A stretch of DNA of 37,342 bases from Tidjanibacter sp. (lineage in GTDB: Bacteria; Bacteroidota; Bacteroidia; Bacteroidales; Rikenellaceae). Position 1 is the first letter of the stretch; each line of letters starts with the position of its first letter. The translations under genes and the position numbers were made by a program. The DNA is taken from contig JAGBGK010000021.1 of NCBI GenBank assembly GCA_017936005.1, forward strand, positions 1-37,342. The letters are read 5' to 3'. This document shows, one piece after another, positions 5,292-26,010 of this stretch. Under the pieces are notes generated by a model, which had not been told where the DNA came from, did no database searches, and worked only from the letters and a program-made list of their open reading frames with translations.

Positions 5292-5321
5292 AAGGTATAA
5301 TTTATTTTTGAAACTTCCAAA
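5290..5321 (-). promoter_or_regulatory. promoter of the LacI-family gene
   Basis: On the minus strand a TTTG (-33) at 5321-5318 and TACCTTTG (-7) at 5297-5290 are separated by 20 bp. This matches the Bacteroidetes primary-sigma consensus TTTG, about 19-21 bp, TAnnTTTG. The start codon lies 18 bp downstream of the -7 element, giving a very short leader. Confidence 0.75.
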
Positions 5322-5525
5322 GTGGATGTTTGCGCGATGTGGTAGATATATCTTCGTTTCACGCAAAAGTGTCGTTTTTCGGGGTGTGTATTTTGGTGTG
5401 TGTTTGAATGAATTTTGTATGGCTCATTTGATATTTATAGGGTGGTTTTATTTTGATTTACAATTGTTTGCAATTGTGTGTGCGCTGTGTGTATATTTTT
5501 GTTTGTTCAAAAAATAACAAAAAAT
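5322..5525. other. divergent intergenic region, AT- and TG-rich
   Basis: The central part of the 330-bp gap between the regulator and the first esterase gene. It is rich in TGTG and TTTG steps and contains no credible gene. Apart from the two flanking promoters I see no further clear regulatory site. Confidence 0.5.
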
Positions 5526-9409: not shown

Positions 9410-12232
9410 ATGAAGAAATTTGCACTTACACTCGGAGCGTTGCTCGTGGTATTGAGCGCAATGGGTGCTGCACCCGCAAGACCCCAAACCCCCAAAGCCG
9501 GCCAAAAGGTGGAGAAATTCACCCTCGGCAAGAACAAGATGTACAAGAAAGACTACATCGACTTCAACAAAAACGGCCGTATGGACGTGTATGAGGACCC
9601 CAATGCCGATATCGACGCTCGTGTGGAGGACCTGTTGAGCCAGATGAACTTGGAGGAGAAGACCTGTCAGATGGTAACCCTCTATGGCTACAAACGTGTG
9701 CTGCCCGACGACCTGCCAACCCCCGAGTGGAAAAACAAACTCTGGAAGGATGGCGTGGGCTCCATCGATGAGCACCTCAACGGTTTCCGCCACTGGAACC
9801 TTCCCGTGTCGGACAACGAGAATGTGTGGCCCGCATCGCGCCACGCTTGGGCTCTGAACAAAGTGCAGCAGTTCTTCGTTGAGGAGACAAGGCTCGGTAT
9901 CCCCGTAGATTTCACCGACGAGGGTATCCGTGGTGTGGAGGCTTATAGGGCTACCAACTTCCCCAGCCAAATCGGTATGGGCCACACTTGGAACCCCGAC
10001 CTTATCCGCAAGATGGGTTACATCACCGGCCGTGAGGGTAGGCTTTTGGGCTATACCAACGTCTATGCCCCCATTCTCGACGTGGGTAGGGACCAGCGTT
10101 GGGGCCGCTATGAGGAGGTCTATGGTGAGGACCCCTATCTTGTAGCCGAGTTGGGCGTTGCGATGGTTGAGGGCCTGCAAACCAATTGGCAGGTGGCTGC
10201 AACAGGTAAGCACTTTGCTGCATATTCCAACAACAAGGGCGCTCGTGAGGGTATGGCCCGTGTGGATCCCCAGATGGGCCCGAGGGAGGTGGAGAATGTT
10301 CACCTCTATCCTTGGAGGGAGGTCATCCGCAGAACCGGTATGAAGGGTGTGATGAGCTCCTATAACGACTACGACGGTGTGCCCGTTCAGGGTAGCCGCC
10401 ACTGGTTGACCGAAATCCTCAGGGAGCAGATGGGCTTCGATGGTTATGTGGTGTCGGACTCCGACGCTGTGGAGTATCTCCACTCCAAACACCACGTTGC
10501 AGCCAATATGAAGGAGAGTGTTCGCCTGAGTGTTGAGGCGGGTCTTAATGTGAGGTGTACTTTCCGTAGCCCCGATAGTTACGTTCTCCCCCTGCGTGAA
10601 CTCGTTCAGGAGGGTACAATCCCTATGGAGATGATTGACGAGAGGGTTAGGGATGTGTTGAAAGTGAAATTCTTGGTAGGTCTGTTCGACGACCCCTACC
10701 AGCGCGACTATAAGGCTGCCGACGAGGAGATTGACGGCGAAGAGAACAACGTGTATGCATTGCAGGCTTCGAGGGAGGCTATGGTGCTTTTGAAGAACGC
10801 CAATGGTACCCTGCCTCTGGACCGTAGCAAGGTGAAGAAGATTGCCGTTGTGGGCCCCAACGCTATGGCGGAGAAGTTTGCTCTGCTCCACTATGGCCCT
10901 CAGGCTAACGAGGTTACCAACGTGGTTGAGGGTATCACCGCAGCTGCTCCCGATGCAGAGGTGATGTATGCCAAAGGCTGCGACCTTGTGGATAGCCGCT
11001 GGCCCATCTCGGAGATTCTGCCCGAGGACCCCAATGCCGAGGAGCAGGCAATGATTGACGAGGCTGTGGCTTTGGCCGCACAGAGCGATGTTGTTGTGGC
11101 AGTTGTGGGCGGTAGCAACCGTACCTGTGGCGAGAACAAGAGCCGTACCAGCCTCGAACTCGCAGGCCACCAGAACACACTCCTCAAGGCACTCAAAAAG
11201 GCGGGTAAGCCTATGGTTGTGGTGCTGATTAACGGCCGTCCTTTGTCGATTAACTGGGCCGAGCAGAATGCCGATGCAATCTTGGAGGCTTGGTACCCCG
11301 GTGCACACGGCGGTCAGGCCATTGCCGAGGTGCTCTTTGGCGACTACAACCCCGGTGGTAAACTCACCGTTACCTTCCCCAAAACCGTTGGTCAGATTCC
11401 TTTCAACTTCCCCTTCAAACCCGCTTCGCAGGTGGACGGCCCCGTTACATTCGGTCCCAACGGCGACCAGTCGAGGGTTAACGGCGCGCTCTACAACTTC
11501 GGCTATGGTTTGAGCTACACCACCTTCGAGTACTCCAACTTGAAGCTGGGTAAGACCAAAGTGCTTCCTTATGAGGACGTGGAGGTTGAGTTCGACGTAA
11601 CCAACACCGGTAAGATGGCTGGCGACGAGGTAGTTCAGCTCTACGTTAGCGACTGCGTAAGCTCGGTTACTGTGTATGAGAAACAGTTGCGTGGTTTTGA
11701 GCGTGTACACCTCGAGCCCGGTCAGACCAAGAGGGTGAAGATGACCCTGAGGGGCGACCTGCTCTCGCTGTTGGATGTGAATATGAAGAGGGTGGTGGAG
11801 CCCGGTTACTTCGATATTATGATTGGTGCCTCCTCGGTGGATATCCGCCTGACAGAAAAACTCCTCGTGTTGGACGAGAAGGGCGACTACAAAGAGGTTG
11901 GTGCCTATGCCGACGATGTGTCGGTGGTACGTTCCACCCTGCCCGCAACCCTTTCGAGGGGTGTGGATGTGACCTTCCCCGTGAAGAAGGATGTGAAGGT
12001 TGACTACCTGACCATCACTTGGGGCGATGACGCTGATGGTTGCGAGTTTGAGATTTTGACAACCATCGGTGGTGGACAGTTCTTGCCCGTCTATGGCGGT
12101 ATTGCCGAGAAGGGTAAGAGCCAGACCTGCCGCTTCGAGGCTGCTACGGCAAGTGAGATTAGGGTTGCCGTTACCAAAGGTAAGGGTACGGTGAAGGCTC
12201 TCGAAAGTAGCGCATTGGCACGTAATAAATAG
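9410..12232 (+). CDS. GH3 beta-glycosidase with appended C-terminal domain
   Basis: A 940-residue exported enzyme; residues 1-20 are a signal peptide ending near AMGAA, with no lipobox Cys, so a periplasmic location is likely. After an N-terminal linker (YIDFNKNGRMDVYEDP) comes the GH3 barrel. The nucleophile is Asp350 in GYVVSDSDAVEYL, and the substrate pocket includes GKHFAAY and GEDPYL. The second GH3 domain contains VVVAVVGGSNRTCGENKSRTS, with a candidate acid/base Glu. A fibronectin-III-like domain follows (YGLSYTTFEYSN onward). The last 115 residues or so look like an extra beta-sandwich, possibly discoidin-like. GH3 enzymes remove single sugars (glucose, xylose or others) from non-reducing ends; the specificity is not readable here. 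Confidence 0.92.
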   Translation: MKKFALTLGALLVVLSAMGAAPARPQTPKAGQKVEKFTLGKNKMYKKDYIDFNKNGRMDVYEDPNADIDARVEDLLSQMNLEEKTCQMVTLYGYKRVLPDDLPTPEWKNKLWKDGVGSIDEHLNGFRHWNLPVSDNENVWPASRHAWALNKVQQFFVEETRLGIPVDFTDEGIRGVEAYRATNFPSQIGMGHTWNPDLIRKMGYITGREGRLLGYTNVYAPILDVGRDQRWGRYEEVYGEDPYLVAELGVAMVEGLQTNWQVAATGKHFAAYSNNKGAREGMARVDPQMGPREVENVHLYPWREVIRRTGMKGVMSSYNDYDGVPVQGSRHWLTEILREQMGFDGYVVSDSDAVEYLHSKHHVAANMKESVRLSVEAGLNVRCTFRSPDSYVLPLRELVQEGTIPMEMIDERVRDVLKVKFLVGLFDDPYQRDYKAADEEIDGEENNVYALQASREAMVLLKNANGTLPLDRSKVKKIAVVGPNAMAEKFALLHYGPQANEVTNVVEGITAAAPDAEVMYAKGCDLVDSRWPISEILPEDPNAEEQAMIDEAVALAAQSDVVVAVVGGSNRTCGENKSRTSLELAGHQNTLLKALKKAGKPMVVVLINGRPLSINWAEQNADAILEAWYPGAHGGQAIAEVLFGDYNPGGKLTVTFPKTVGQIPFNFPFKPASQVDGPVTFGPNGDQSRVNGALYNFGYGLSYTTFEYSNLKLGKTKVLPYEDVEVEFDVTNTGKMAGDEVVQLYVSDCVSSVTVYEKQLRGFERVHLEPGQTKRVKMTLRGDLLSLLDVNMKRVVEPGYFDIMIGASSVDIRLTEKLLVLDEKGDYKEVGAYADDVSVVRSTLPATLSRGVDVTFPVKKDVKVDYLTITWGDDADGCEFEILTTIGGGQFLPVYGGIAEKGKSQTCRFEAATASEIRVAVTKGKGTVKALESSALARNK

Positions 12233-12252: not shown

Positions 12253-13683
12253 ATGAGAACTATGAGTTTTTTTACGACGTTGATGGTTTTGGCCGCTCTG
12301 GTGGGGTGTGGTGAAAATGGCACCCCTACACCCGAGCCAACCCCCAATGAGTGGGACAATACCAAGGTGGAGTACTACGAGTATAGCCACACGGTTGTCC
12401 CCTCGGCATTCTACCACGTGGAGGTCAATGGCAAGGGGGTCAAAACCCTGCCCACCACCGAGGCACACGTCTGTGTGTTCGGTTGCGATGGAGTGGTTGA
12501 GGTTGAGATTTTCGACCTGCGCCAAAATATTGAGAGCGTCGTTGTGAGGCCCATATCGAAGAATTATACTTATAGTAACGAAGGTGGTAGTGTGAAACTC
12601 TACCTGCGCCCCTATGACAGGGTGGACGTGGAGATTAATGGCGACGAGACCAACCCGCTATTTATCTTTGTCAACCCCTTGGAAGAGGGCAATCGACCCG
12701 ATGAGAACGACCCCAATGTGAAGTACTTCAAGGCGGGAGGCGTGTATGGCAACCATATCACCCAGACACTCAAATCGGGCCAGACCATCTATATCGAGGG
12801 TGGCGCGATTTTGACCGGAGGTATCATCTCGGAAGGCCTTGAAAATGTAAAAATCGCAGGCTGTGGTATTTTGGACGGACGTGAAACATCCACACAGGCA
12901 ATTAAGATTGGCAGGACCAAGGGGTTGACCATCGAGAATGTGACGGTGCTGAACAGGGATCTGTGGACCACCTACCTCTGGGAGTGTGAGGATATTGTGG
13001 TGGATAACTACAAGGTTGTGGCGGTGGCAACCACCCACCACCAATACGGTGCCGAGAACGATGGCTGTAACTTGTTGGGATGTAAGAATGCGGTTGTGAG
13101 CCGTAGTTTTAGTTACTGCCACGATGACGCTTTCTGCATCAAGGCCCAAAAGTGGCTTGTGGGTGCCGAGGTGGACAATGTGGAGTTCAGGGACTGCATC
13201 GCTTGGAATGTGGGCGGTGGCAGTTCGTTCCAAGTGGGTGCCGAGTTGAACAAGAATGTGAATGATGTGAGGTTCCGCAATGTGTATGCCATTCGTACTG
13301 CGGGTCGTACCCCCAGCCTTCGCCGAGGCTCTTTGAGTTTGCAGAACTGTGCGGGCGGCAAGGTAACCAACATATCTTACGATGGAGTGTGGGCCGAGGA
13401 CCCCAGAGAGTATGGTATCTATATGGGTATCCTCAAAACGAGCTACGAAATCGGTCAGGGTGTTGAGTGGACTCCGGGCGAGGTGGATGGAGTGAGTGTG
13501 AAGAATGTGAACTTCCTTGTGAAGCCCCCCTATGGTTTCCATTTTCAGGGCTACGATGTGGACGTACACAGACTCAAAAATATCACCTTGGAGAATATCA
13601 CCATTGCAGGTGAGAAACTTACGAAGGATAACGCAGCGGCGATGGGCGTGGTGATTAAGAACGCCGATGTGGAGATAAAATAG
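12253..13683 (+). CDS. beta-helix glycoside hydrolase, clan GH-N-like, paralogue 1
   Basis: A 476-residue lipoprotein (lipobox AALVGC, then a Pro/Thr linker). Residues 35-150 form a predicted beta-sandwich with the conserved VVRPISKNY and VEINGDETNPLFIFVNPLE. From SGQTIYIEGGAI (about 176) it becomes a right-handed parallel beta-helix. The acidic cluster Asp270 in AENDG and Asp291-Asp292 in CHDDAFCIK has the 21-residue spacing of GH28 polygalacturonases (NTD...DD). The sandwich-plus-helix layout recalls GH49 dextranases and isopullulanase, which share clan GH-N with GH28. It is one of the three paralogues with the first Asp intact. The GH28 catalytic His (GHG motif) is replaced by GGGSSFQVG. 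Hydrolase activity is inferred; the substrate is unknown. The ATG at 12256-12264 region offers an alternative start three codons in. Confidence 0.72.
   Translation: MRTMSFFTTLMVLAALVGCGENGTPTPEPTPNEWDNTKVEYYEYSHTVVPSAFYHVEVNGKGVKTLPTTEAHVCVFGCDGVVEVEIFDLRQNIESVVVRPISKNYTYSNEGGSVKLYLRPYDRVDVEINGDETNPLFIFVNPLEEGNRPDENDPNVKYFKAGGVYGNHITQTLKSGQTIYIEGGAILTGGIISEGLENVKIAGCGILDGRETSTQAIKIGRTKGLTIENVTVLNRDLWTTYLWECEDIVVDNYKVVAVATTHHQYGAENDGCNLLGCKNAVVSRSFSYCHDDAFCIKAQKWLVGAEVDNVEFRDCIAWNVGGGSSFQVGAELNKNVNDVRFRNVYAIRTAGRTPSLRRGSLSLQNCAGGKVTNISYDGVWAEDPREYGIYMGILKTSYEIGQGVEWTPGEVDGVSVKNVNFLVKPPYGFHFQGYDVDVHRLKNITLENITIAGEKLTKDNAAAMGVVIKNADVEIK
13557..13570. promoter_or_regulatory. candidate operator-like 14-mer, site 2 (intragenic)
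   Basis: TGTGGACGTACACA lies inside the 3' part of beta-helix paralogue 1, where it encodes part of DVDVHR. It is the exact reverse complement of site 1, and the match extends to 18 of 20 bases counting the upstream CTAC. It could be an auxiliary operator or a coincidence of coding sequence. Confidence 0.35.
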
Positions 13684-13720
13684 AGAGAGATTAGCAAAAC
13701 TAAAAACCATAAATAGAACG

Positions 13721-15214
13721 ATGAAATCAAAAATCTACACAACAGTATCAACAATGTTGATTGCAATGGGCCTCGTGTTGGCTTCTTGCACACCAAATTC
13801 AACACCAACACCAGACCCCACTCCCGAGCCGGAGAATCCGTGGGATAACACCACCGTGGAGGTGTATAAATACTCCTCGCAGATTGTCCCTTCGATTATA
13901 TATGGCGTTACGGTCAACGGCCAAAACTGTTTTGTGTATCCCTGCTCCGAGCCTCAGGTTGCAACCTTTGGTGCCGATGGCTTGGTGGAGGTTAAGGTTG
14001 ACCTTTTCACAACCAATGTCGAGAGCGTGATGGTGCGCCCACAGGCAAAGGAGTATGAGTACCGCCTCGAAAACGGTAGCGTATATCTCTATCTGCGCCC
14101 CTACGACCAGGTGTCGGTGGAGGTAAACGGCGACTTGGAGAACCCTCTGTTCATCTTTGTTAACCCCTTGGAGAAGGACAAACCTAACCCAGAGGACGAG
14201 AACGTGGTTTACTACAAGGCGGGCGAAGTGTATAATGTCCCTTCGGTGATTGTTAAGTCGGGCCAGACGGTCTATATCGAGGGTGGTGCTGTGATTTATG
14301 GTGCAATCTTCTCGGAGAGCGCTACCGACATCACCATCACCGGTTGCGGTATCGTGGATAGTAGGGAGACCGGCACCACTTGGGGTACCCGTATCTCCTA
14401 TGGCAAAAACGTGAGGTTGGAGAACATCCTCCAATTCAACCACGCTGGTTGGAGTTGCGCTATGGTACAGTGCGACAACTGCCACCTGTTCAACTACAAG
14501 ATTATCGCACCCCACAACCCTCATAATCAATATGGTATTGAGAATGGCGGTATCTCGATGAACTCGTGCTGGGATTCGAGTGTGAAGAACTGCTGGGCCT
14601 TTGGACACGACGATGCTTATATGATTAAGAGCCGCAAGTGGGGCTGGGATAGGGAGGTTAAGAATGTAACCTTCGAGAACTGTATCGGCTGGAACGTGGA
14701 GGCAGGCAACACCTTTGAGGTGGGCTATGAGATGCAGAGGGATGTGGACAATGTTAAATTCAAGGACATCTACGCCATCCACTCGGGCACTCGCAACATT
14801 ATGCGTAGGGCCGCAATCAGCATCCACCAGGCTGCTGCCGGTAAGGTTACCAACATCAGCTATGAGAACGTACACATCGAGGACCCACAGGAGTATGGTA
14901 TCTATCTGAGTGTGATGAAGAGTGGCTATGACATCGGTTTGAAGGAGGGCGAGGTTTGGACCCCCGGCTCGATTGATGGCGTAACATTCAAGAATGTCTA
15001 TATCTACAAGGATGCACCCCAGGGTAACCTCATCCTCTATGGCTACGACAGTGGTGAGCACAACGTGAAGAACCTCACCTTTGAGAACTTCTTCATCAAC
15101 GGCGAGAAGATTACCTCGTGGGAGCAGTCGGGTGCAAAGATTGACACCAAACACGCTCTCGGCTCCAGCTTCAAACCCGTGATAACCCCTGCCAAGAACG
15201 TGACTTTCAAATAG
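13721..15214 (+). CDS. beta-helix glycoside hydrolase-like, paralogue 2 (Asp-to-Gly)
   Basis: A 497-residue lipoprotein (lipobox VLASC; linker TPTPDPTPEPE). It has the family layout: sandwich domain with VMVRPQAKEY and VEVNGDLENPLFIFVNPLE, then a beta-helix from SGQTVYIEGGAV. The catalytic-site candidates are Asp297-Asp298 in GHDDAYMIKS. The residue 21 positions earlier, Asp in GH28, is Gly276 in GIENGG, and no Asp occurs in the following loop (GISMNSC); only the Glu two residues earlier is acidic. GNTFEVGYEM and RRAAISIHQ follow in order. It may be a hydrolase with a rearranged triad, a binding protein, or an enzyme with another mechanism. It starts 37 bp after paralogue 1. Confidence 0.68.
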   Translation: MKSKIYTTVSTMLIAMGLVLASCTPNSTPTPDPTPEPENPWDNTTVEVYKYSSQIVPSIIYGVTVNGQNCFVYPCSEPQVATFGADGLVEVKVDLFTTNVESVMVRPQAKEYEYRLENGSVYLYLRPYDQVSVEVNGDLENPLFIFVNPLEKDKPNPEDENVVYYKAGEVYNVPSVIVKSGQTVYIEGGAVIYGAIFSESATDITITGCGIVDSRETGTTWGTRISYGKNVRLENILQFNHAGWSCAMVQCDNCHLFNYKIIAPHNPHNQYGIENGGISMNSCWDSSVKNCWAFGHDDAYMIKSRKWGWDREVKNVTFENCIGWNVEAGNTFEVGYEMQRDVDNVKFKDIYAIHSGTRNIMRRAAISIHQAAAGKVTNISYENVHIEDPQEYGIYLSVMKSGYDIGLKEGEVWTPGSIDGVTFKNVYIYKDAPQGNLILYGYDSGEHNVKNLTFENFFINGEKITSWEQSGAKIDTKHALGSSFKPVITPAKNVTFK

Positions 15215-15221
15215 ATGAGAG

Positions 15222-15235
15222 TGTGGACGTACACA
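15222..15235. promoter_or_regulatory. candidate operator-like 14-mer, site 3 (intergenic)
   Basis: TGTGGACGTACACA lies in the 56-bp gap between beta-helix paralogues 2 and 3, 7 bp after the stop codon. It is identical to site 2 (16 bases, with the trailing GA) and is the reverse complement of site 1 at the PUL promoter. No plus-strand -7 element is visible near it, so an internal-roadblock or looping role fits better than direct promoter occlusion. Confidence 0.4.
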
Positions 15236-15270
15236 GATTAGGAATATAATAACGCAAAAATATAATTAAG

Positions 15271-16824
15271 ATGAAAAAACTGACTGCATTGACCGCACTA
15301 TTGTTTGGTACATTGTGCCTCTGGGCTTGTACTCCCAATCCCGACAATGGAGAGGGCAAAGAACCGGAGCCATCGACTAACCCCTACGACGAGCAGATTA
15401 AGAATACCACGGTGGAGATCTACAAATATGCTCCCAATGCTCCCCGTACGGCATACTATGCAGTGAGCGTGCAGGGTAAGGGCGACCCACAGAACTGCTA
15501 TGTATTCCCCGTTGGTAAGGATGGCGTGGGTGCCAGCAACGGTAGGCCATACGATATTCCCCACATTGCAACCTTTGGTGCCGATGGTATGGTGAGGGTG
15601 GAAATTATCCCCTTGCAGGTAGTACCCGAGACGGTTGAGGTGCTGCCCAGTGTGAAGGAGTATCCCAACTGGATTGAGGACGGCAAGGTGGTTGTCTACC
15701 TCAGCGAAGGCGACAAGGCAAGCGTGGTGATTAATGGCGACTTGGAGCACCCTGTGTTCCTCTTTGTCCACTCGCTCGAAACCGACAAACCCAGCAAGGA
15801 CGACCCCAATGTAATCTACTTTGAGGCAGGCAAGATTCACGACCGCCAGCCCAAGCTGACTGCCCAGTCGGGCCAGACCATCTATATCGAGGGTGGTGCT
15901 ATTGTGTTGGGTGCTGTCTATATTCAGAATGTGGAGAATGTAACCATCGCAGGCCACGGTATTATGGACGACTACCACATTGTCCATGATGAGGGCACCC
16001 ACAAGAATTGGGGTATGAGGTTGTACCGTTGTAAGAATATGACCGTTAAGGATATCCTACTGGCCAATATGCACGGCTGGACAACCTATGCTGTTGAGTG
16101 CGAGGATGTAACCTTCGACAACTACAAGGTTATTGCCGCTTGGAATGAGTACAATAACACGGGCGTGGAGAACGACGGTATGGGTGTGATGTGTGGCAAG
16201 AGGATTAAGTTCCTCAACACCTTCTCCTACTCGCACGATGATACCTATGTTATCAAGAGTGGCAAGTGGAGCTATACCGGCGAGGTTGAGGATGTGCTCT
16301 ATGATGGCTGTATGGCTTGGAACAGGTGGGGTGGCAATGCCTTCGAGATTGGCTATGAGGTGCCCTACAACATCTCGGACATCAAATATCGCAACTGCTA
16401 TGTGCTCCGCTCGGCTATCAGTATTGGCTACACCTTCCGCCACGGTGCTATGTCCATCCACAACTCCGGTAAGGGTACGGTGAGCAATGTAAGCTATGAG
16501 AATATGCACATCGACAACCCCGATGAGTTTGGTATCTACTTCTCGATTATCAAGACTTCCTACACCCTCCCCGATGGCGAGGTTTGGGGCCCAGGTAACA
16601 TCAACGGAGTGACGATGAAGAACATCTATATGTACAACACTCCTCCCTATGGCAACATCCTCTTTGGCTACGACAAGGACCACACCGTTAAGAACATCTC
16701 CATCGAGAATCTCGTGATTAACGGTCAGAAGTGTATGTCCATCAAGGATGCCAACTTCACTGTGGACCAGGCACATGCAAAAGTGTCCTATCCTGTGCCT
16801 GATAGCGAGGTGACTTTCAAATAG
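15271..16824 (+). CDS. beta-helix glycoside hydrolase, clan GH-N-like, paralogue 3
   Basis: A 517-residue lipoprotein, the longest of the array (lipobox LCLWAC). Its N-terminal region has an insertion, GKDGVGASNGRPYDIPH, before the conserved sandwich. VVINGDLEHPVFLFVHSLE and SGQTIYIEGGAI mark the transition to the helix. Asp302 (GVENDG) and Asp323-Asp324 (SHDDTYVIKS) keep the complete GH28-like spacing. The site following is GGNAFEIGYEV, with no GHG histidine. FRHGAMSIHN and the terminal strand SEVTFK are shared with paralogue 4, its closest relative by motif. Likely surface or periplasm-facing polysaccharide hydrolase; the specificity is unknown. Confidence 0.72.
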   Translation: MKKLTALTALLFGTLCLWACTPNPDNGEGKEPEPSTNPYDEQIKNTTVEIYKYAPNAPRTAYYAVSVQGKGDPQNCYVFPVGKDGVGASNGRPYDIPHIATFGADGMVRVEIIPLQVVPETVEVLPSVKEYPNWIEDGKVVVYLSEGDKASVVINGDLEHPVFLFVHSLETDKPSKDDPNVIYFEAGKIHDRQPKLTAQSGQTIYIEGGAIVLGAVYIQNVENVTIAGHGIMDDYHIVHDEGTHKNWGMRLYRCKNMTVKDILLANMHGWTTYAVECEDVTFDNYKVIAAWNEYNNTGVENDGMGVMCGKRIKFLNTFSYSHDDTYVIKSGKWSYTGEVEDVLYDGCMAWNRWGGNAFEIGYEVPYNISDIKYRNCYVLRSAISIGYTFRHGAMSIHNSGKGTVSNVSYENMHIDNPDEFGIYFSIIKTSYTLPDGEVWGPGNINGVTMKNIYMYNTPPYGNILFGYDKDHTVKNISIENLVINGQKCMSIKDANFTVDQAHAKVSYPVPDSEVTFK

Positions 16825-16866
16825 TATAGTGTGACGAGATAATTGCAACCTAATACAATAAAGACA

Positions 16867-18387
16867 ATGAAACCAATGAACGTGTTTATGATGCTGGTGG
16901 GCACACTGCTGATGGCTTGTGCACCCGAGCCCACTCCGGGTGGTGGGGGCGAAAACAATACACCCACAGACTCTTTGGAGGCGCAGATTAAGAATACCAC
17001 TTTGGAGAACTATAACTATGCTCCCGATGCACCACGCTCGCACTTCTTCGCAGTGGGTGTGCAGGGTAGTGGCGAGATGGAGAACTGCTATGTCTTCCCA
17101 ATGGTCACCAATCACGACTCGCCACACATCGTAACCTTCGGTGCCAACGGCCTCGTGAGGGTGGAGATTTACCCCTTGACAGTGGTGCCCGAAACGGTTG
17201 TTGCACGTCCGCTGGTCAAAGAGTATCCCTGCTGGGTTGAGGATGGCAAGGTGGTGCTCTATGTGAGCGAGGGCGATAAGGCAACGGTGGAGATTAACGG
17301 CAACGAGGATATGCCCGTGTTGGTCTTTGTCAACCCGCTCGAAACCAACAAACCGAGCAAGGACGATCCCAATGTGGAGTACTACGAGGCGGGTAAGGTC
17401 TATGACCGCCAGCCCACCTATTCCCTCAGTGCAGGCAAAACGCTCTACATCGAGGGCGGTGCCATCGTGAAGGGTGGCTTCAAACCCACCTTGCAGGACA
17501 ACATCACCGTAGCAGGCTATGGTATCATTGACGACTTCCACGTTGCTCACGAGAACAACAGTGGGTGGGCCTTCCGTATGGATAGGTGTAATGGTGCAAA
17601 GGTGAGTGGTGTTATCATTGCCAATATGGCGGGCTACTCGTGTGCTACGATTATGTCGCACGACATCACCTTCGACAACGTGAAGATTATCGCCCCTTGG
17701 AACGAAGACCACGAAACGGGTGTGGAGAATGGTGGCATTTGCTTCTTCGCTTGTCAGAAGGTTAGGTGCAAGGACCTCTATGCCTACGCACACGATGATA
17801 CCTATATGGTTAAGACCAACAAATGGTCGTGGATTGGCGAGGCCAAAGACCTTGTGTTTGAGGGCTGTCAGGCCAACAACGTCAGGGGTGGTAACGCCTT
17901 TGAGATTGGCTATGAGGTCAACGAGGGTGTCGATGGAGTAACCTTCCGTGACTGCTACGTTATCCACTCGGCAAGGAGCTATGGCTACACCTACCGCCAC
18001 GGCTCGTTCACCATCCACAACTCCACCAAGGGTATGGTGAAGAATATCCTCTATGAGAACTGCTACATCGACGACCCCAAGGAGTTTGACTTCTACATCT
18101 CGGTGTTGCCCGACTGTGGCTACTCGCTTGGTAATGGAGTGGAGTGGGGCCCCGGACACATTGAGAATGTTACGATTAGGAACATCTACGTGGAGAAGAA
18201 AGCTCCCTATGGCGAGATTATGTTCGGCCTCGACAGCGAGCACACCGTGAAGAACGTAACCATCGAAAACTTCAACATCGAGGGCAAGAGGATGACCTCT
18301 TTTGAGGAGATTGGCTTCGGTATAGACCCCAAATACAACGGTAGGGGCTATGTTAAGGTGAAACCAGAGGAGGTAACCTTCAAGTAG
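16867..18387 (+). CDS. beta-helix glycoside hydrolase-like, paralogue 4 (Asp-to-Gly)
   Basis: A 506-residue lipoprotein. The start ATG at 16867 gives MKPMNVFMMLVGTLLMAC, a clean lipoprotein signal; a TTG 24 bp upstream only lengthens the n-region and was not used. VVARPLVKEY, VEINGNEDMPVLVFVNPLE and AGKTLYIEGGAIV mark the sandwich and the first helix coils. Asp310-Asp311 lie in AHDDTYMVKT. Gly289 in GVENGG replaces the first GH28 Asp, and the next loop is GICFFAC, with no Asp. The helix coil ANNVRGG differs from the usual GWNV. It is highly similar to paralogue 3 in the C-terminal half (YRHGSFTIHN, EEVTFK), yet the two differ at the candidate catalytic Asp, which suggests recent divergence of function. 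Confidence 0.68.
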   Translation: MKPMNVFMMLVGTLLMACAPEPTPGGGGENNTPTDSLEAQIKNTTLENYNYAPDAPRSHFFAVGVQGSGEMENCYVFPMVTNHDSPHIVTFGANGLVRVEIYPLTVVPETVVARPLVKEYPCWVEDGKVVLYVSEGDKATVEINGNEDMPVLVFVNPLETNKPSKDDPNVEYYEAGKVYDRQPTYSLSAGKTLYIEGGAIVKGGFKPTLQDNITVAGYGIIDDFHVAHENNSGWAFRMDRCNGAKVSGVIIANMAGYSCATIMSHDITFDNVKIIAPWNEDHETGVENGGICFFACQKVRCKDLYAYAHDDTYMVKTNKWSWIGEAKDLVFEGCQANNVRGGNAFEIGYEVNEGVDGVTFRDCYVIHSARSYGYTYRHGSFTIHNSTKGMVKNILYENCYIDDPKEFDFYISVLPDCGYSLGNGVEWGPGHIENVTIRNIYVEKKAPYGEIMFGLDSEHTVKNVTIENFNIEGKRMTSFEEIGFGIDPKYNGRGYVKVKPEEVTFK

Positions 18388-18429
18388 TGGGAAAGAATGA
18401 GTAACGGACGCTATATATAACATAAAGGT

Positions 18430-19887
18430 ATGAAACAAAGAGTGTTAAGCATAGTGGCAATTGTGGCGGTGGCAATGACCGCCCTGGTGTCGTGTGGCCC
18501 CAAAGATGATGAAGTGGATTTGAGCATCTATGAGTCGCAGACGGCAAATACCTCCCATCAGGTCTATAACTATGCACCTGATGCTCCCGTGTCGGCGTTC
18601 TACTCCGTGAAGGTGGCTGGCGACGACTGCTATGTCTATCCCGTGAACACCGACCACGACAAACCACAGTTGGTGTCGTTTGGTACCAATGGCCTTGTGA
18701 GGGTGGAGATTACCCCGTTGAAGGTGAGCCCCACGTCTGTGGTGGTGCGCCCGCTGGCAAAGAACTATCCCCACAAGATTGAGGACGGTAGGATTATCCT
18801 CTACCTCACCGAGGGCGACCACGCCACCATCGAGGTTAACGGCGACGAGGATGTACCCATCTTCTTGTTTGCCAACCCGCTGGAAATCAACAAACCCGAC
18901 AAAAACGACCCCAATGTGGAGTACTACGAGGCGGGAAAGATTTATGACAAACAGCCCACGTTTACAATCGCTTCGGGTAAGACTCTCTACATCGAGGGCG
19001 GTGCCATTGTGAAGGGCGCTCTTGATGTGAAGGGTATGAACAATATCACCCTTGCCGGCTATGGTATAATTGACGATTTCTATGTGAAGCACGAGAACCA
19101 ATCGCTATGGTCGTTCAAGGTGTGGGAGTGTAACAACGTGAAGGTGGATGGCCTGACGGTGTGCAATATGTATGGTTGGAGTTGCGCCTTCTTGGAGGTG
19201 AACGACCTTGATATCAACAACTTCAAGGTGATTGCCCCCTACAATGAGTACAATAGTGTTGGTGTGGACAATGGCGGTATCGACCTGCTGGGTTGCCAGA
19301 GGGCCAAGTGTATCAACTCCTTTGCATACGCACACGACGACGGTATTCTGGTGAAGTCCCACAAGTGGGGCTATCGTGCCCACGCAAAGGACAACCTCTT
19401 TGAGAACTGCATCTCGTGGACGGTTGGTGGTGGCAACTCGTTTGAGGTGGGTTATGAGCTCAACGAAGGTGTGGAGGATATTACCTTCCGCAACATCTAC
19501 GCACTCCACAGTGGTACTCGTGGTAATGCCTACCGTCGTGGTGCCGTTACCATTCACAACGCTACGGCAGGTGTGGTGCAGAACATACACTATGAGAACG
19601 TCTACATCGAGGACCCCAAAGAGTATGGTATCTATGTTTCGCTATTGAGGTCAGAGTATGGCATCGGCGACGGCGTAGAGTGGGGCCCTGGTGTGATTAA
19701 GAACGTGACATTCAAGAATGTCTACTTCTACAAGGAGCCTCCCAGGGGACATCAAATCAACGGCCTCAACAATGGCGACAGCAAGGTGCAAAACCTTGTG
19801 TTTGAGAACCTGAACATCTGCGGAAAGAAGATTACACAACCCGACGAGAAGTTCTTTATCCAACTTGCCGACGTGAAGTTCAAGTAG
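18430..19887 (+). CDS. beta-helix glycoside hydrolase-like, paralogue 5 (Asp-to-Gly)
   Basis: A 485-residue lipoprotein with signal MKQRVLSIVAIVAVAMTALVSC and no Pro-rich linker. VVVRPLAKNY, VEVNGDEDVPIFLFANPLE and SGKTLYIEGGAIV are family marks. The cluster is Asp303-Asp304 (AHDDGILVKS). Gly282 in GVDNGG replaces the first GH28 Asp, though an Asp remains three residues later in GGIDLLG, where GH28 also often has Asp. SGTRGNAYRRGAVTIHN and the terminal ADVKFK are conserved. It starts 42 bp after paralogue 4. Function as in the rest of the array; catalytic competence is uncertain. Confidence 0.68.
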   Translation: MKQRVLSIVAIVAVAMTALVSCGPKDDEVDLSIYESQTANTSHQVYNYAPDAPVSAFYSVKVAGDDCYVYPVNTDHDKPQLVSFGTNGLVRVEITPLKVSPTSVVVRPLAKNYPHKIEDGRIILYLTEGDHATIEVNGDEDVPIFLFANPLEINKPDKNDPNVEYYEAGKIYDKQPTFTIASGKTLYIEGGAIVKGALDVKGMNNITLAGYGIIDDFYVKHENQSLWSFKVWECNNVKVDGLTVCNMYGWSCAFLEVNDLDINNFKVIAPYNEYNSVGVDNGGIDLLGCQRAKCINSFAYAHDDGILVKSHKWGYRAHAKDNLFENCISWTVGGGNSFEVGYELNEGVEDITFRNIYALHSGTRGNAYRRGAVTIHNATAGVVQNIHYENVYIEDPKEYGIYVSLLRSEYGIGDGVEWGPGVIKNVTFKNVYFYKEPPRGHQINGLNNGDSKVQNLVFENLNICGKKITQPDEKFFIQLADVKFK

Positions 19888-19933
19888 GGTAGAGAGAGTT
19901 AACCGAATAGGAGATAACCACAATACAAAGAAT

Positions 19934-21319
19934 ATGATGAAGAGCAAACTTACAATCTTTTTAGTACTGACCGCATTGGTGCTCACCTCGTGTGGCCCCA
20001 AGGTGGAGAACTACAAATTCGACGAGAGCCTTGAAAAATCCGAAATGTGGAGTGTGAAGGTGAAGGGTGACGATGTGTATGTACACCCCACCCACCAGCC
20101 CCACATCGCCTCGTTTGGTGTTGAGGAGAAGGGTGTCGAGGTTGTGATTGAGCACCTGACCGCCAATGTGGAGAGTGTGGCTGTGCGCCCGCTGGGTAAG
20201 AAATATGACTACACCGTTGAGGGCAACAAGATTCGCCTGCGCCTGAAACCCTACGACAACATCTGTGTGGAGGTCAATGGCGACGAGTGGAACCCCTTGT
20301 TCCTCTTTGTCAACCCCCTCGAAGAGGGACGCAGGCCCGACCCCAACGCCGAGGGTGTACGCTACTACAAGGCCGGCAAAGTCTATAAGGAGGATATCAC
20401 GCTCAACTCCGGCGAAACACTCTGGATTGAGGGTGGTGCCATTGTGAATGGTAAAGTTCGCGCGCAGGATGCCGAGAATGTAACCATTGGCGGCCCCGGC
20501 TATGTGAAGAAATTTGAGCCCGGCTTTGGTCGCAGTAAGATGGCCTTCGTGGTGGATAACTGCAAAAATGTGAAGGTGAGTGACGTTACGGTACTCAATA
20601 GGGATAGTTGGAGCTGTGCCTTCTTTGTGAGTAAGGATGTGGAGATTGTGGGTATGAAAATCGTGGCTCCACGCAGCACCAACCAGCACGGACACGATAA
20701 CGGAGGTATCGATATGCTCGGCTGTCAGGATGCAACCCTCACCCACTGCTTTGCCTATGCCCACGACGACGCATTTATGATTAAGTCGCACAAATGGCAT
20801 TGGGGCGGCGAGGTGAAGAACGTACACTTCCGCGATTGTATCGGCTGGAATGTGAATGCAGGCAACACCTTCGAGATGGGCTATGAGATGAACAACAACG
20901 TGAGCGATGTGAGCTGGACCGACATCTACTCCATCCACTCGGGTACCCGTGGCGTGTGGCGTAGGGGTGCCGTTACCATCCACCAGAGCGCAGGAGGTAC
21001 CGTTAGGAACGTAACCTACAACAATGTCCACATCGAGGACCCCAAGGAATATGCCTTCCACTTCGCCATTCTCAAAACCGAATATGGCATTGGCGATGGC
21101 GTGGTGTGGAGCCCGGGTAAGGTGGAGAATGTAACCTTCAACAACGTCTATGTCTATCACGACGCTCCCGAGGGCTCGGAGATGTGGGGTTACAGCGAGG
21201 ATAACTGCTTTGAGAACATCACCTTCAACAACCTCTACCTCAACGGTAAAAAAGTTACCTCTTTTGAAGAGGCCGACTTCCGTAGGGTTGAGAACATCAA
21301 AAACGTACAATTCAAATAG
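19934..21319 (+). CDS. beta-helix glycoside hydrolase-like, paralogue 6 (Asp-to-Gly)
   Basis: A 461-residue lipoprotein (lipobox VLTSC). It lacks the N-terminal YxYAPDAP segment of paralogues 3-5 and starts the mature domain directly at SEMWSVKVKGDDVYVHP. VAVRPLGKKY, VEVNGDEWNPLFLFVNPLE and SGETLWIEGGAIV follow. Asp278-Asp279 are in AHDDAFMIKS; Gly257 in GHDNGG replaces the first GH28 Asp, with Asp three residues later (GGIDMLG). GNTFEMGYEM and WRRGAVTIHQ are intact. By motif it is the nearest relative of paralogue 7, and only 17 bp separate the two genes. Confidence 0.7.
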   Translation: MMKSKLTIFLVLTALVLTSCGPKVENYKFDESLEKSEMWSVKVKGDDVYVHPTHQPHIASFGVEEKGVEVVIEHLTANVESVAVRPLGKKYDYTVEGNKIRLRLKPYDNICVEVNGDEWNPLFLFVNPLEEGRRPDPNAEGVRYYKAGKVYKEDITLNSGETLWIEGGAIVNGKVRAQDAENVTIGGPGYVKKFEPGFGRSKMAFVVDNCKNVKVSDVTVLNRDSWSCAFFVSKDVEIVGMKIVAPRSTNQHGHDNGGIDMLGCQDATLTHCFAYAHDDAFMIKSHKWHWGGEVKNVHFRDCIGWNVNAGNTFEMGYEMNNNVSDVSWTDIYSIHSGTRGVWRRGAVTIHQSAGGTVRNVTYNNVHIEDPKEYAFHFAILKTEYGIGDGVVWSPGKVENVTFNNVYVYHDAPEGSEMWGYSEDNCFENITFNNLYLNGKKVTSFEEADFRRVENIKNVQFK

Positions 21320-21336
21320 AAACCAAATATAAACCG

Positions 21337-22722
21337 ATGAAGAAAATTACACAGTTTTTGACTCTGCTTGCAGTTGCGTTTGCGGTAAGCAGTTGTGGTC
21401 CCAAGACTACCGTGTAGATTTATGATTTCCCTGATGAGTATGAGGCCTCCCAGATGTGGAGCGTTAAGTGTGGCGGCGAGGAGGTTTTCGTAACCCCCAC
21501 CGAGGAGCCTCACTTGGCTTCGCTGGGTTGTGATGGCAAGGTGAAACTCACCGTTGAGTACCTCGCAGGTGAGGTTGAGAAGGTGGATGTTCGCCCCATC
21601 GCAAAGAACTATCCCTACAAGGTGAAGGGCAACCGTATCACCATCGAGTTGGAGCCCTATCAGAAGGCCGTAATCGAGGTTAATGGCGACCTGGTGAACC
21701 CTCTGTTCATCTTTGCCAACCCTCTGGAAAAGCGTCCCGATAGGAACGACGAGAATGTAATCTACCTCGAAGCAGGCAAGATTCACCAGGGCGATAGCCT
21801 CACTCTCCACACCAACCAACACCTCTACTTGGAGGGTGGTGCTGTGCTGAAAGGCTACCTTCTGGCAAGCCACGCCGACAACATCAAGGTTAGCGGCCCC
21901 GGTTATGTGGATGCTCGCCACAAGGGACTCGGCAACAGGGCCCTCCTGTTTGAGTACTGCAACGGCGTTGAGTTGGAGGACTTTATGATTATCAACAAGA
22001 ACTGGTGGACTTGTGTGTTGTGTGTATGTAACGACGTGCAGATGACCAACTACAAGAGCGTTGCTCCGCCCAGCGACAACGGCCACGGCCACGAAAACGA
22101 CGGTGTGGACATCCTCGGCGGTCAGAACATCACCCTCGACCACTGCTTCTCCTACTGCCACGACGACGCCTTTGTGGTTAAATCGCGTAAGTGGGATTGG
22201 GGTGCAGCGGTGAAGAACGTGGAGTTCAACGACTGTATCGGTTGGAACGTACACGCAGGTAACACCTTCGAGATTGGCTGGTGCTGTGGCGAGGATATCA
22301 CCGACATCAGGTACAACGACGTCTATGCCGTTCACTCCGGCTCGCGTGGTAGGTGGTACAACGCTGCTCTTGCTATCCACAACGCTTCGAAGGGCGTGGT
22401 TAGCGGCATTGTCTACAACAATGTACACATCGAGGATCCCCAGAGGTTCCTCTTCCACGTGAGCATCACCGAGTCGCACTTCAACATCGGTACGGGTGTT
22501 AAGTGGGCTCCCGGTAAGATTCACGATGTGACCTACAACAATATCCACGTCTATAAGGCAGCCCCCGAGAAGGACGGCTCGCAGTTCTATGGTTGGAATG
22601 ACGAGTTCGACATCCAGAACGTGATCTTCAAGAATGTCTACATCGAGGGTAAGAAGGTTACCAGCTTGGAGGACCTGAATGTTACCAAGATGCAGCACGC
22701 CAAGAACTTCCGATTTGAGTAG
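21337..22722 (+). pseudogene. beta-helix glycoside hydrolase, paralogue 7, in-frame TAG after signal
   Basis: The seventh paralogue. From the ATG at 21337 the frame gives a full lipoprotein signal, MKKITQFLTLLAVAFAVSSC, then GPKTTV and an in-frame TAG at 21415-21417. The frame then continues without break to 22722: IYDFPDEYEASQMWSVK and the complete sandwich plus beta-helix. The layout matches paralogue 6 (LTSCGPKVENYKF...SEMWSVK), so the upstream part belongs to the gene. A single base change (for example CAG, AAG or GAG to TAG) would explain it. The first in-frame ATG after the stop is 21454, which would give a leaderless protein. Asp255 (HENDG) and Asp276-Asp277 (CHDDAFVVKS) keep the whole acidic cluster. 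It may be a pseudogene, a readthrough product, a population variant or an assembly error. Confidence 0.8.
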
Positions 22723-22770: not shown

Positions 22771-25700
22771 ATGAAAAAACTTTTGCTACAATGTGTTACG
22801 TTGCTTGCAGCACTGATGTGTGCAGGTAGCGTAGCAGCGCAAAGCGGCAACATTTCGGGTCGAGTAATCGACTCGGATGGTGAGCCGATTCTTGGTGCAT
22901 CGGTGGTCTATGACGGTACCAACGTGGGTACGACAACCAATGCAAAAGGCGAGTACTCGATCAAGAGTATGAAGGGCAAAAAACTCGTGTTCTCCTACTT
23001 CGGTTTGAAGGACTACAGCGTTACCGTTGGTAACCAGACTCGCCTGAACGTCACTCTCGAAGCCGACAACATCAAGATTGATGACGTTGTGGTCATCGGT
23101 TATGGTGAGGTTTCCCGTAAGGACTTGACCGGTGCTCTTTCGTCGGTGTCGTCGGAGGAGCTGGTGAAGAGTGGTAGTAGCAACGTATTCGGCGCATTGC
23201 AGGGCCGTGTTGCAGGTATCAACATCACCTCGCAGTCGGGTGAGCCCGGTTCGGGTTTCAACATCAAGGTCAGGGGTAACAACTCTATCAATGCGGGTAC
23301 TACTCCTCTCTATGTTATCGACGGCAACCAGATGGACCTCTCCTCGGGTGAGGTTGCAACTTCGGGCTCGACAAGTAGCAACACCTACGACCCTATGGCG
23401 TTCCTTAACCCCGCCGATATCGAGTCGATTGAGGTGTTGAAGGATGCTTCGGCGACTGCTATCTACGGTGCTCGTGGTGCAAACGGCGTTGTGCTGATTA
23501 CCACCAAGAGTGGCTCGGGCGGCGACCGCACGATGATTAACTTCGATGCAAGCTATGGCGTTTCGAATGTGCCCAAGTACCTCGAAATGTTGACTCCTCA
23601 GCAGTATGTAGACTATCGTTTCGAGCGTAAGGACTACGGCTGGGACCACTATGGCGACGACCTCGATGGTGATGAGGTTCCCGATGTAGCGAAGAACGCA
23701 AACCAGTATGATAGCTACGATTGGCAGAGGATTCTCTATCGTACCGCAATCACTCAGAACTACAACATCTCGGCTTCGGGTTCGGTGAGCAAAAAGACCC
23801 AGGTGTTGGTGAGTGCAGGCCACCTCAACCAAGAGGGTCTTATCAAAAACAACGACTTCCTCCGCTATTCGGCCCGTGTAAAGGTTGACCACCAGGCCAA
23901 GAAGAATATCAAAATTGGTGCTTCGGCAACCTATGGTCGCAACATCTCCAACGGTGCCGTTTCGTCGGGTGGTGGTGCGCTGGGTAACAGCGGTCTTATT
24001 CAGCTTATCTATTTGGAGCGTCCTGTGAGGCTTATGTCGCCTTCGGATGAGACCGAGTATCCCAACGGTTGGACCTCGCTGCTGAGTATGGTGGAGAAGG
24101 AGACCTACCGTAGGACAATCTACGACCGTGTGATGGGTAACGTCTATATGCGCTGGGACATCACTCCCGACCTGCTTTTGTCGGCCAACTTCTCGGGCAA
24201 CACCTCGTTGTCGAGCCAGAGGGAGTTCTATAGCAAACACAGCCGCTGGGGCCAGTCGAGGAATGGTTACGCAAAACAGACTATGGTGAACACTTGGGGC
24301 TATAACGGCTCGGTTACGCTGACCTACAAGAAGAAATGGGGCGAGCACAGCTTCGACGCTATGATTGGTGGTGAGATGAGCGAGTACTACAGCGATAGGT
24401 TCTACATCGCAGGCTACGACTTCGCTGATGAGAGTACCGGCGTGTTCGACTTCTCGAAGGCTCAGATTATGGAGATTCCTTCGGTGTCGATTGGTGAGAA
24501 TGCTCGCCTGTCAACCTTCGGTCGTATGAACTACAACTACGCAAGCAAGTACTACTTCACCTTCAATATGCGTGCCGACGGTTCGTCGAAATTCGCACAG
24601 GGCTACCGCGTGGGCTACTTCCCCTCGGTTTCGTTGGCGTGGAGGGTTTCGGAGGAGAACTTCATCAAAGACAATGCAGAGTGGTTTGACAACTTCAAGA
24701 TTCGTTTGAGTGCCGGTGCTACCGGTAACGACCGTGTATCGAACTACGTTTATATGTCGTTGATGGGTACCAACTTCTACGGCCAGAACGGTAACGAGAT
24801 TATGGGTATGGGCCCCAGCAGCTCGGCTAACGGTAAGCTCAAATGGGAGACCACCTATCAGTACAACGCCGGTGTGGACTTGGGCTTCTTTGGCAGCCGT
24901 GTTAACCTGACTGCTGATGTGTACTACAAGGACACCCGTGATATGCTTTACAGCGCAACCCTCTCGGCACAGTCGGGCTTCACCACCCAGTGGCAGAACC
25001 TCGGTAGGGTAGAGAACAAGGGTATTGAGGTTGTTCTGAACACCCACAACATCGAGAAGAAGAACTTCTCGTGGTCGACCGCTATCGCATTTGACCTTTC
25101 GCGCAACAAAGTGTTGGACATCGGTGGTATTAAGTACACCAGTGTGAACATCGGTAACGGTATGTTGTCGACCGACCTTTCGCGTATTATGGTTGGCCAG
25201 CCCATCGGTGTTGGTTATGGTTATGTATTCGACGGCAACTACCAGCTGAAAGACTTCATCATCACCCACAAAGAGCTTGGCTTTGTTCTGGACGACAATA
25301 TGATTGACAACGGTGCAGTAACCTCGGGCAATATGGACCAGTATAAGTTCGAGTTGAAACCCTATTTGGATGAGAACGGTAATCCTACCGGTCCTGTTAA
25401 GATTGCTTCGGAGGCAGCCACCAGGCCTGGCGACCGTAAGTATAAGGACTTGGACGGCGATGGTAGTGTTGACTCGGCAAACGACCGTACTGTCATCAGC
25501 AATTCGAACCCCGACTTCACCATCGGTTTGACCAACAACTTCACCATTGGTAAGTTCGACATCAACATCTTCTTCGAGGGTGTCTATGGCCGCGATATTA
25601 TGAACGAGTTTAAGCTCCGTAGTGAGTCTGGTAAGAGTGGTGCTACCCAGTTCAGCAACCTTCGCAAGGAGGCTTGGTTGGGCCACTGGACTCCTGAGAA

Positions 25701-26010
25701 CGGCTCGCAGACCTATGGTCGCCTGCTCAACTCGACCAACACTTGGGTATCGTCCTACTTTGTTGAGGATGGTTCGTTCATTCGTTTCAAGACACTGAGC
25801 GTCGGCTACACCTTGCAGAATGCTGCTTTGAAGCGTGCCGGTATCGGTATGTTGCGTTTCAGCGTTGCAGCCGACAACCTCTACATCTGGTCGAATTATA
25901 GCGGTATGGACCCCGACGTTAGCTCGTCCAACTCGCTCTTCACAGGTTTCGACCGTCTGTCTTATCCCAAGGCTCGTACAGTAACCTTTGGTATTAACGC
26001 TACATTCTAA
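22771..26010 (+). CDS. SusC/RagA-type TonB-dependent outer-membrane transporter
   Basis: A 1079-residue SusC homologue, the energised pore that imports oligosaccharides across the outer membrane with its SusD lid. The signal peptide ends at VAAQ (about residue 23). A carboxypeptidase-regulatory-like domain follows (ISGRVIDSDGEPILGASV to about residue 100), then the TonB-box-like DVVVIGYG and the plug (LSSVSSEELVKSG, LQGRVAGINITSQSGEPG, IYGARGANGVVLITTKSG). The rest is a 22-strand barrel ending in ARTVTFGINATF with a terminal aromatic. Start 48 bp after the beta-helix array with no promoter seen, so it is probably in the same operon. No STN domain is present, so control is likely through the LacI protein rather than an anti-sigma factor. 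Confidence 0.96.
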   Translation: MKKLLLQCVTLLAALMCAGSVAAQSGNISGRVIDSDGEPILGASVVYDGTNVGTTTNAKGEYSIKSMKGKKLVFSYFGLKDYSVTVGNQTRLNVTLEADNIKIDDVVVIGYGEVSRKDLTGALSSVSSEELVKSGSSNVFGALQGRVAGINITSQSGEPGSGFNIKVRGNNSINAGTTPLYVIDGNQMDLSSGEVATSGSTSSNTYDPMAFLNPADIESIEVLKDASATAIYGARGANGVVLITTKSGSGGDRTMINFDASYGVSNVPKYLEMLTPQQYVDYRFERKDYGWDHYGDDLDGDEVPDVAKNANQYDSYDWQRILYRTAITQNYNISASGSVSKKTQVLVSAGHLNQEGLIKNNDFLRYSARVKVDHQAKKNIKIGASATYGRNISNGAVSSGGGALGNSGLIQLIYLERPVRLMSPSDETEYPNGWTSLLSMVEKETYRRTIYDRVMGNVYMRWDITPDLLLSANFSGNTSLSSQREFYSKHSRWGQSRNGYAKQTMVNTWGYNGSVTLTYKKKWGEHSFDAMIGGEMSEYYSDRFYIAGYDFADESTGVFDFSKAQIMEIPSVSIGENARLSTFGRMNYNYASKYYFTFNMRADGSSKFAQGYRVGYFPSVSLAWRVSEENFIKDNAEWFDNFKIRLSAGATGNDRVSNYVYMSLMGTNFYGQNGNEIMGMGPSSSANGKLKWETTYQYNAGVDLGFFGSRVNLTADVYYKDTRDMLYSATLSAQSGFTTQWQNLGRVENKGIEVVLNTHNIEKKNFSWSTAIAFDLSRNKVLDIGGIKYTSVNIGNGMLSTDLSRIMVGQPIGVGYGYVFDGNYQLKDFIITHKELGFVLDDNMIDNGAVTSGNMDQYKFELKPYLDENGNPTGPVKIASEAATRPGDRKYKDLDGDGSVDSANDRTVISNSNPDFTIGLTNNFTIGKFDINIFFEGVYGRDIMNEFKLRSESGKSGATQFSNLRKEAWLGHWTPENGSQTYGRLLNSTNTWVSSYFVEDGSFIRFKTLSVGYTLQNAALKRAGIGMLRFSVAADNLYIWSNYSGMDPDVSSSNSLFTGFDRLSYPKARTVTFGINATF

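Follow-up and report, generated by a model that had tools for sequence, protein, structure and literature searches.

Several families of glycoside hydrolases (GH) combine a β-helix with a catalytic machinery of three aspartates. In the accessible part of a study of GH110, the fold and the machinery (Asp-321, Asp-344 and Asp-345) are described as conserved in GH28, GH49 and GH87 (PMC7939477). In GH28, Asp180, Asp201 and Asp202 are required, D180/D201 provide the reference spacing, and sequences that lack D180 are regarded as non-functional, according to the available sections of PMC8952511. The GH49 enzymes, such as isopullulanase (1wmr, 3wwg) and dextranases (6nzs, 1ogm), have a β-sandwich followed by the β-helix. 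Conserved loss of catalytic residues has been described for GH26B of polysaccharide utilization locus (PUL) 7 of Segatella copri, a hydrolase paralogue inside a Sus-type locus, which according to the excerpted text of PMC12704710 lacks both catalytic residues across more than 60 genomes and metagenome-assembled genomes (MAGs). Here, we analysed a stretch of 37,342 nucleotides, hereafter the window, from Tidjanibacter sp. (assembly GCA_017936005.1, contig JAGBGK010000021.1), in which seven consecutive genes of one family form a tandem array on the + strand, spanning positions 12253-22722. With slightly better than even confidence, we interpret this array as an expansion of a two-domain protein of clan GH-N, in which copies with the complete aspartate cluster (D-types) cut a glycan, and copies with Gly in place of the first Asp (G-types) are conserved, non-hydrolytic glycan holders. 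The genes of the array and the codons of the catalytic residues in gene 3 are as follows.

12253..13683, + strand: gene 1, two-domain β-helix lipoprotein, D-type (END-G, HDD); from alignment and Pfam
13721..15214, + strand: gene 2, same family as gene 1, G-type (ENG-G, Gly replacing Asp); from alignment and Pfam
15271..16824, + strand: gene 3, D-type with D302, D323 and D324; modelled, predicted local distance difference test (pLDDT) 91.0; from alignment, AlphaFold and Foldseek
16174..16176, + strand: codon of D302 in gene 3, the same column being Gly in genes 2, 4, 5 and 6; computed from the gene start
16237..16242, + strand: codons of D323-D324 in gene 3, a pair kept in 65 of 65 aligned rows; computed from the gene start
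16867..18387, + strand: gene 4, G-type; start shifted by inspection from TTG 16843 to ATG 16867
18430..19887, + strand: gene 5, G-type (DNG-G); modelled, pLDDT 92.0; GPKDDE directly after the lipobox Cys
19934..21319, + strand: gene 6, G-type (DNG-G)
21337..22722, + strand: gene 7, D-type, interrupted here by an in-frame TAG at 21415-21417

Genes 2 to 7 share 36-47% identity with gene 1, and the seven-row alignment has 61 invariant columns. By inspection, each gene encodes a signal peptide and a lipobox with its Cys at residues 18-23, which in gene 7 was read through the interrupted frame; the start of gene 4 is most likely ATG 16867, not 16843. The alignment, the inspected lipoboxes and the models of genes 3 and 5 confirm what had been proposed in a reading of the DNA without database searches (the sequence-only reading), namely seven consecutive lipoprotein genes of the same two-part design. 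The motifs quoted in that reading are present, and as a shared signature they hold in part: HDD is invariant across the seven, as are portions of the N-terminal motifs (NG, LE), while FEVGYE and RRGA vary.

The structures of the proteins of genes 3 and 5 were predicted with AlphaFold, each with a predicted template modelling score of 0.90. Together with their structural matches, the models are consistent with an N-terminal β-sandwich joined to a right-handed β-helix. For both models, the first seven Foldseek ranks are all occupied by GH49 chains, with E-values of 2.7e-18 to 6.4e-13 for gene 3 and of 7.2e-17 to 2.6e-12 for gene 5, followed by GH28 at 3.1e-8 and 2.3e-9, respectively. GH87, which like GH110 shares the β-helix and the three-Asp machinery (PMC7939477, accessible part), is in both Foldseek lists, and both families appear in the profile search described below; these matches are much weaker than those of GH49 and GH28. 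The β-helix adhesin PfbA is among the weaker matches as well (E 3.5e-5 for gene 3 and 1.2e-5 for gene 5), as would be expected if all seven proteins, D-types included, were non-enzymatic surface adhesins on a β-helix scaffold. We consider this very improbable: the best GH49 matches are better by more than 10 orders of magnitude, and the D-types, like 120 of 121 relatives, have all three residues of the clan triad.

At the level of the individual sequences, the family is drawn towards GH28. All seven genes pass the cut-off of the Pfam model of GH28 (PF00295, 22.9 bits), at 29.1-42.7 bits and over the helix part only, so that arrays of this kind could be miscounted as enzyme copies in genome surveys. 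The best NCBIfam matches are GH28 pectin enzymes, weakly, with at most 40.3 bits against cut-offs of 500-800. Neither of the GH49 Pfam models, PF03718 and PF17433, was listed at E ≤ 1 for any of the seven genes, in a search in which most matches with E above 0.1 are discarded by the HMMER filters. For gene 2, there is a match to the isopullulanase solenoid that stays below threshold (11 bits, cut-off 30.2), and its single-sequence search of solved structures gave one match, adiponectin, at E 0.0014 with no stretch passing alone. Across 198 genomes of the phylum, PF03718 gave one match, which was below its cut-off. Relatives were added in alignment A2, of 65 rows, which comprises the seven window genes and 58 of 95 listed open frames, with fragments, near-duplicates and fused frames omitted (a further alignment, A4, has 50 rows, 7 from the window and 43 others). 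At E 0.01, GH28 is matched by 62 of the 65 A2 members and the N-terminal domain of GH49 by one. The best solved match of the profile made from these 65 rows is the GH49 isopullulanase, at E 1.2e-28; the alignment runs from position 16 to position 440 of 456 and thus covers both the N-terminal sandwich and the helix, with the Asp and AspAsp columns placed on TDG and DDD stretches. The next match is the GH28 exo-polygalacturonase 3jur (E 7.1e-26), over positions 207-438, which is the helix only, and the third is dextranase 6nzs (E 5.3e-25). GH49 comes first only once relatives are added to the profile, a result that was reproduced on repeat.

The seven genes could be described as ordinary, diverged paralogues of GH28 pectinases, all active on pectin-type galacturonans, and the Pfam scores of the seven and of the 62 A2 members, like the weak NCBIfam matches, are what such a description would predict. 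It is improbable in our view, since a separate GH28 elsewhere in the same genome scores 116.7 bits, the NCBIfam cut-offs are far from reached, the closest folds are those of GH49, and no pectin-specific enzyme was found among the 16 neighbour genes scanned with Pfam. Plain GH28 pectinases were consequently rejected as the first choice on the low Pfam scores relative to the other GH28 and on the GH49 fold matches. No single characterised family was matched with high scores by all seven genes, which is the result that the sequence-only reading had named as speaking against novelty; the Pfam GH28 scores are too low for it.

As judged from profiles and predicted structures, the array proteins are members of clan GH-N that combine a GH49-like architecture with a GH28-like acidic spacing. 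Both the clan relationship and this combination had been claimed from the letters alone; the former is borne out by the 65-row profile, the catalytic residues and Foldseek on two models, and for the latter profile, residue spacing and structural matches agree. With GH49, the array shares the order of β-sandwich and β-helix, the best structural matches of both models and the register of Asp and AspAsp, the Asp itself being lost in genes 2, 4, 5 and 6. It differs from GH49 in its low identity in the structural alignments (14-17%), in the distance from Asp to AspAsp, which is 21 residues in gene 3, the GH28 value, and 19 in the aligned isopullulanase stretch (counted by hand), and in not matching the GH49 Pfam models. 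With GH28 (exo-polygalacturonase 3jur, galacturonidase 5olp), the array shares the passed Pfam cut-off, the spacing of 21 and a DD-x4-K stretch, as in exo-type GH28. It differs in its low scores, in a β-sandwich that lies outside the GH28 model, in the four of seven genes without an equivalent of D180, and in the His of the GHG motif of polygalacturonases, which is absent from all seven genes. This absence had been pointed out in the sequence-only reading and is correct, but it fails as a diagnostic sign, because the rhamnogalacturonases of GH28 also lack the GHG His (PMC8952511, available sections). A new family for the group is possible. The open-access literature gave no title on this two-domain GH-N group among the matches listed, and we found no characterised member of what is a widespread group joining features of GH28 and GH49.

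In the numbering of gene 3, the equivalents of D180, D201 and D202 of GH28 are D302, D323 and D324. The three aspartates are complete in genes 1, 3 and 7, and the first is replaced by Gly in genes 2, 4, 5 and 6. Genes 1, 3 and 7 thus have both the predicted β-helix and the three Asp that characterise clan GH-N; genes 2, 4, 5 and 6 have the predicted fold only. D323 and D324 are kept in all 65 rows of A2. In the D302 column, Asp is found in 53 rows and Gly in 12, and all 12 belong to types 2, 4, 5 and 6 of three Tidjanibacter arrays. A wider set comprises 153 distinct stretches over the catalytic region, in which a protein present in two overlapping loci may count twice. Outside the Tidjanibacter loci, D302 is Asp in 121 of 121 stretches, and all three Asp are present in 120; the exception, in locus L124 of genome G478, keeps the D302 equivalent and has Asn-Asn in place of the AspAsp pair. 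The 32 Tidjanibacter stretches divide into 12 with all three Asp and 20 with Gly. This is therefore a lineage in which most copies have lost a residue that is kept by every other relative examined. The array had been presented as seven-fold for one enzyme type, but the first catalytic Asp is missing from four of its genes and a stop codon interrupts one of the remaining three; seven active enzymes of one type, as worded, was rejected on the residue states of genes 2, 4, 5 and 6.

The G-type genes are as constrained as the D-types and are very probably not decaying. Their frames are open in all three Tidjanibacter genomes, Gly is retained across orthologues at synonymous divergences (dS) of about 0.5-1.1, and the ratio of nonsynonymous to synonymous substitution rates (dN/dS) is 0.089-0.216 over nine G-type pairs and 0.097-0.191 over six D-type pairs. 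Since the catalytic Asp has been lost and the genes have nevertheless been kept by selection, the G-types probably hold glycan rather than cut it. The same values make it very unlikely that the G-types are decaying duplicates heading for loss, as gene 7 may already be, a view to which the in-frame stop of gene 7 and a copy number that varies among genomes would otherwise lend themselves. In gene 7, read from 21337, the TAG at 21415-21417 is codon 27 and the lipobox Cys is codon 20. The true start is 21337, and the open frame listed for this gene, which begins at 21454, therefore has no signal peptide; the gene was placed in the alignments and in the Pfam scan from 21454 onward. The frame is otherwise open, uninterrupted copies were found in two relatives (loci L010 and L013), and dN/dS against these two orthologues is 0.097 and 0.134. 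The stop may have arisen recently by a nonsense mutation, be a variant of this strain or result from an error of the assembly. Reassignment of TAG was rejected as its cause because TAG is the commonest stop, ending 18 of the 23 genes read in the window, the G+C content of which is 52.6%.

By analogy with GH110 and GH28, D302 and D324 of genes 1 and 3, and of the intact gene 7 of relatives, would activate water, and D323 would serve as general acid. The D-types would then act close to the cell surface as inverting enzymes that cut an alpha-linked glycan. Genes 2, 4, 5 and 6 are most likely non-hydrolytic, or nearly so, and may have been retained because their products still bind glycan. Live and disarmed copies together could catch a polymer that is heterogeneous and O-acetylated and trim it ahead of its uptake by SusC/SusD. 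In the levan and dextran loci, outer-membrane lipoproteins assemble on SusCD, as described in the accessible part of PMC7618045, and by analogy SusCD could be the place where the array copies act, although a single transporter would hardly have room for all seven or eight copies. A more specific proposal, that tandem duplication and the loss of one Asp made a GH-N hydrolase into a conserved set of surface glycan holders beside two or three live copies, is tentative, and our confidence in it falls somewhat short of even. If it is true, the G-types would correspond in nature to the single-Asp mutants with which sugars have been trapped in structures of this clan, and the array would be an apparatus of the cell surface that holds one heteropolymer by several of its parts. 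The Foldseek matches of gene 3 include GH87 entries whose titles name the mutants D1045A, D1068A and D1069A together with nigerose; a search of the open-access literature found nothing relevant on those GH87 mutants.

Several observations weigh against the division into cutting and holding copies and its structural basis. The superpositions on the seven GH49 chains are moderate, with a TM-score (normalised to the query) of 0.56-0.63 and a root mean square deviation of 6.6-7.9 for gene 3, and of 0.48-0.66 and 6.1-10.3 for gene 5. With the seven-row profile alone, the matches were GH28-type structures (E 7.4e-9 and 6.1e-8), and GH49 was absent up to E 10. The acidic motif after the lipobox Cys, which we take to be of the export type, is evident in gene 5 only. 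A coordinated change of the active site between D- and G-types is not supported: in a control with all 35 four-versus-three splits of the seven genes, the columns separating D from G, 11 over the whole protein and 5 around the active site, place this split 10th and 5th, respectively. GH26B of Segatella copri cut none of the substrates tried, and the binding assays made with it were negative as well (PMC12704710, excerpted text). Finally, an acidic residue two places before D302 (E/D300) might stand in for the lost Asp in the G-types.

This residue is at the centre of the alternative in which all seven proteins are active with differing specificity; in the G-types, water would be activated by E/D300 or by D324 alone, and Gly would leave space for a sugar that is substituted or branched. 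All 21 full array rows, D-type and G-type alike, have an acidic residue at position 300, as do L012 and L014, and HDD is kept in every G-type row under strong constraint, which would suit such an enzyme. Position 300 is not acidic in L015, in copy b of genome G828 or in the three outgroups examined. However, the presence of E/D300 in the D-types too means that it is not a gain accompanying the loss of Asp, D302 is Asp in all 121 outside stretches, and the equivalent of D302 is required in GH28 (PMC8952511, available sections). We therefore regard activity of all seven as rather unlikely and retain the division into cutting D-types and holding G-types. Like GH26B, the G-types show conserved loss of a catalytic residue in a hydrolase paralogue of a Sus-type locus; they differ in being four tandem paralogues with one of three residues changed, beside intact copies, where the excerpt on GH26B (PMC12704710) describes one protein with both residues changed. 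They raise the testable question of whether conserved pseudo-hydrolases of Sus-type loci are glycan-binding proteins.

The same Sus-type locus occurs in other Bacteroidales with a single copy or with two, so that the array is an expansion that took place locally, in this lineage, within a locus of older origin. The order GH3, helix gene, SusC, SusD, lipoprotein A (and, in some, B) recurs with one helix gene in L012 and L014, and with two in G828, where the frame of one copy lacks an intact N-terminal end. On another contig (L015), the genome of L014 carries one more member, with a GH109-type gene two genes on. The nearest named relatives found for gene 1 are in Tidjanibacter sp. MAGs, with 96% identity in L010 (sheep colon) and 69% in L011 (water-buffalo caecum). 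Members of the family were seen in Bacteroidota, Planctomycetota, Verrucomicrobiota and other phyla. Among 75 relative loci of 3.7-21.4 kb each, only L010 and L013 have more than two members above 100 bits. Of 268 genomes from the taxonomic family to which the window belongs, 32 gave a match with an E-value of 1e-20 or lower, with at most five candidates scored per genome (at most four in a companion survey); at least five such matches were found in only three genomes, all of one genus, for which 20 other listed genomes have none. The water-buffalo MAG has seven members on one contig, one of them partial and two of them copies of type 4, and gene 1 at the end of another contig, which would make eight in all if the contigs adjoin. 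The type 4 duplication lies at 2214-5225 of L013, and the copy number of the array thus varies. Judged by eye, the full-length tree implies at least three changes of the Asp, with long-branch warnings for L012, L014, L015 and both G828 rows. Trees of four segments place some types differently, including genes 6 and 2, so that paralogues may have exchanged sequence. The partial gene 2 of L013 was omitted from the segment trees, the split control and the column comparison in the dN/dS work.

The other features of the window are the following.

7..1095, - strand: N-acetylhexosamine 1-kinase (NahK-like)
1108..1716, - strand: CBM9-type domain protein
1885..4104, - strand: GH89 alpha-N-acetylglucosaminidase (NAGLU); from Pfam
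4175..5362, - strand: LacI-type regulator, divergent
5453-6526, 6565-7473, 7551-8435 and 8480-9349, + strand: four tandem SASA-type carbohydrate esterases
9410..12232, + strand: GH3 enzyme, directly upstream of the array, as in L012, L014 and G828
22771..26010, + strand: SusC/RagA TonB-dependent transporter; TIGR04056, 864.2 bits, cut-off 368
26035..27954, + strand: SusD-family lipoprotein (SusD_RagB)
28051..30315, + strand: large lipoprotein A, after SusD, a position kept in L012, L014 and G828; no Pfam match at E 0.001
30680..32917, + strand: large lipoprotein B, related to A; no Pfam match at E 0.001
33355..34764, + strand: GH109-type protein; closest solved structures 6t2b and 2ixa

The locus has the components of a Sus-type PUL, namely the SusC/SusD pair, GH3, SASA and GH109 enzymes and the LacI regulator. 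Its neighbours (SASA, GH89, NahK and GH109) point to an O-acetylated glycan with N-acetylhexosamines. The similarity of GH3, whose closest solved structure is a beta-xylosidase, and the neighbours in L014 point instead to xylose and count against an amino-sugar substrate. Upstream of the homologous locus, L014 carries at 91-4281 a xylulokinase-like gene (271 bits, below its cut-off of 380), a xylose isomerase and an XylE transporter, the latter two above their cut-offs, and a hybrid two-component regulator lies between the xylose genes and the locus; the neighbour scan of relatives covered 10 chosen open frames. The NahK-like kinase, the CBM9-type protein and GH89 form an amino-sugar set (7-4104) on the strand opposite to the array. 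The number of SASA esterases varies, with four here, two found in L131 and three in L011. Lipoproteins A and B (28051-32917) have near the C-terminus a DPCPKGWRVAD-type stretch, which we take to be FISUMP-like.

Long open frames run antisense to many genes of the window. The region 34933-37169, on the - strand, holds a glycerol-1-phosphate dehydrogenase-like gene (174 bits to NF002022, cut-off 413), an enzyme that is unusual outside archaea. This gene overlaps that of a HAD-type phosphatase by 52 bases.

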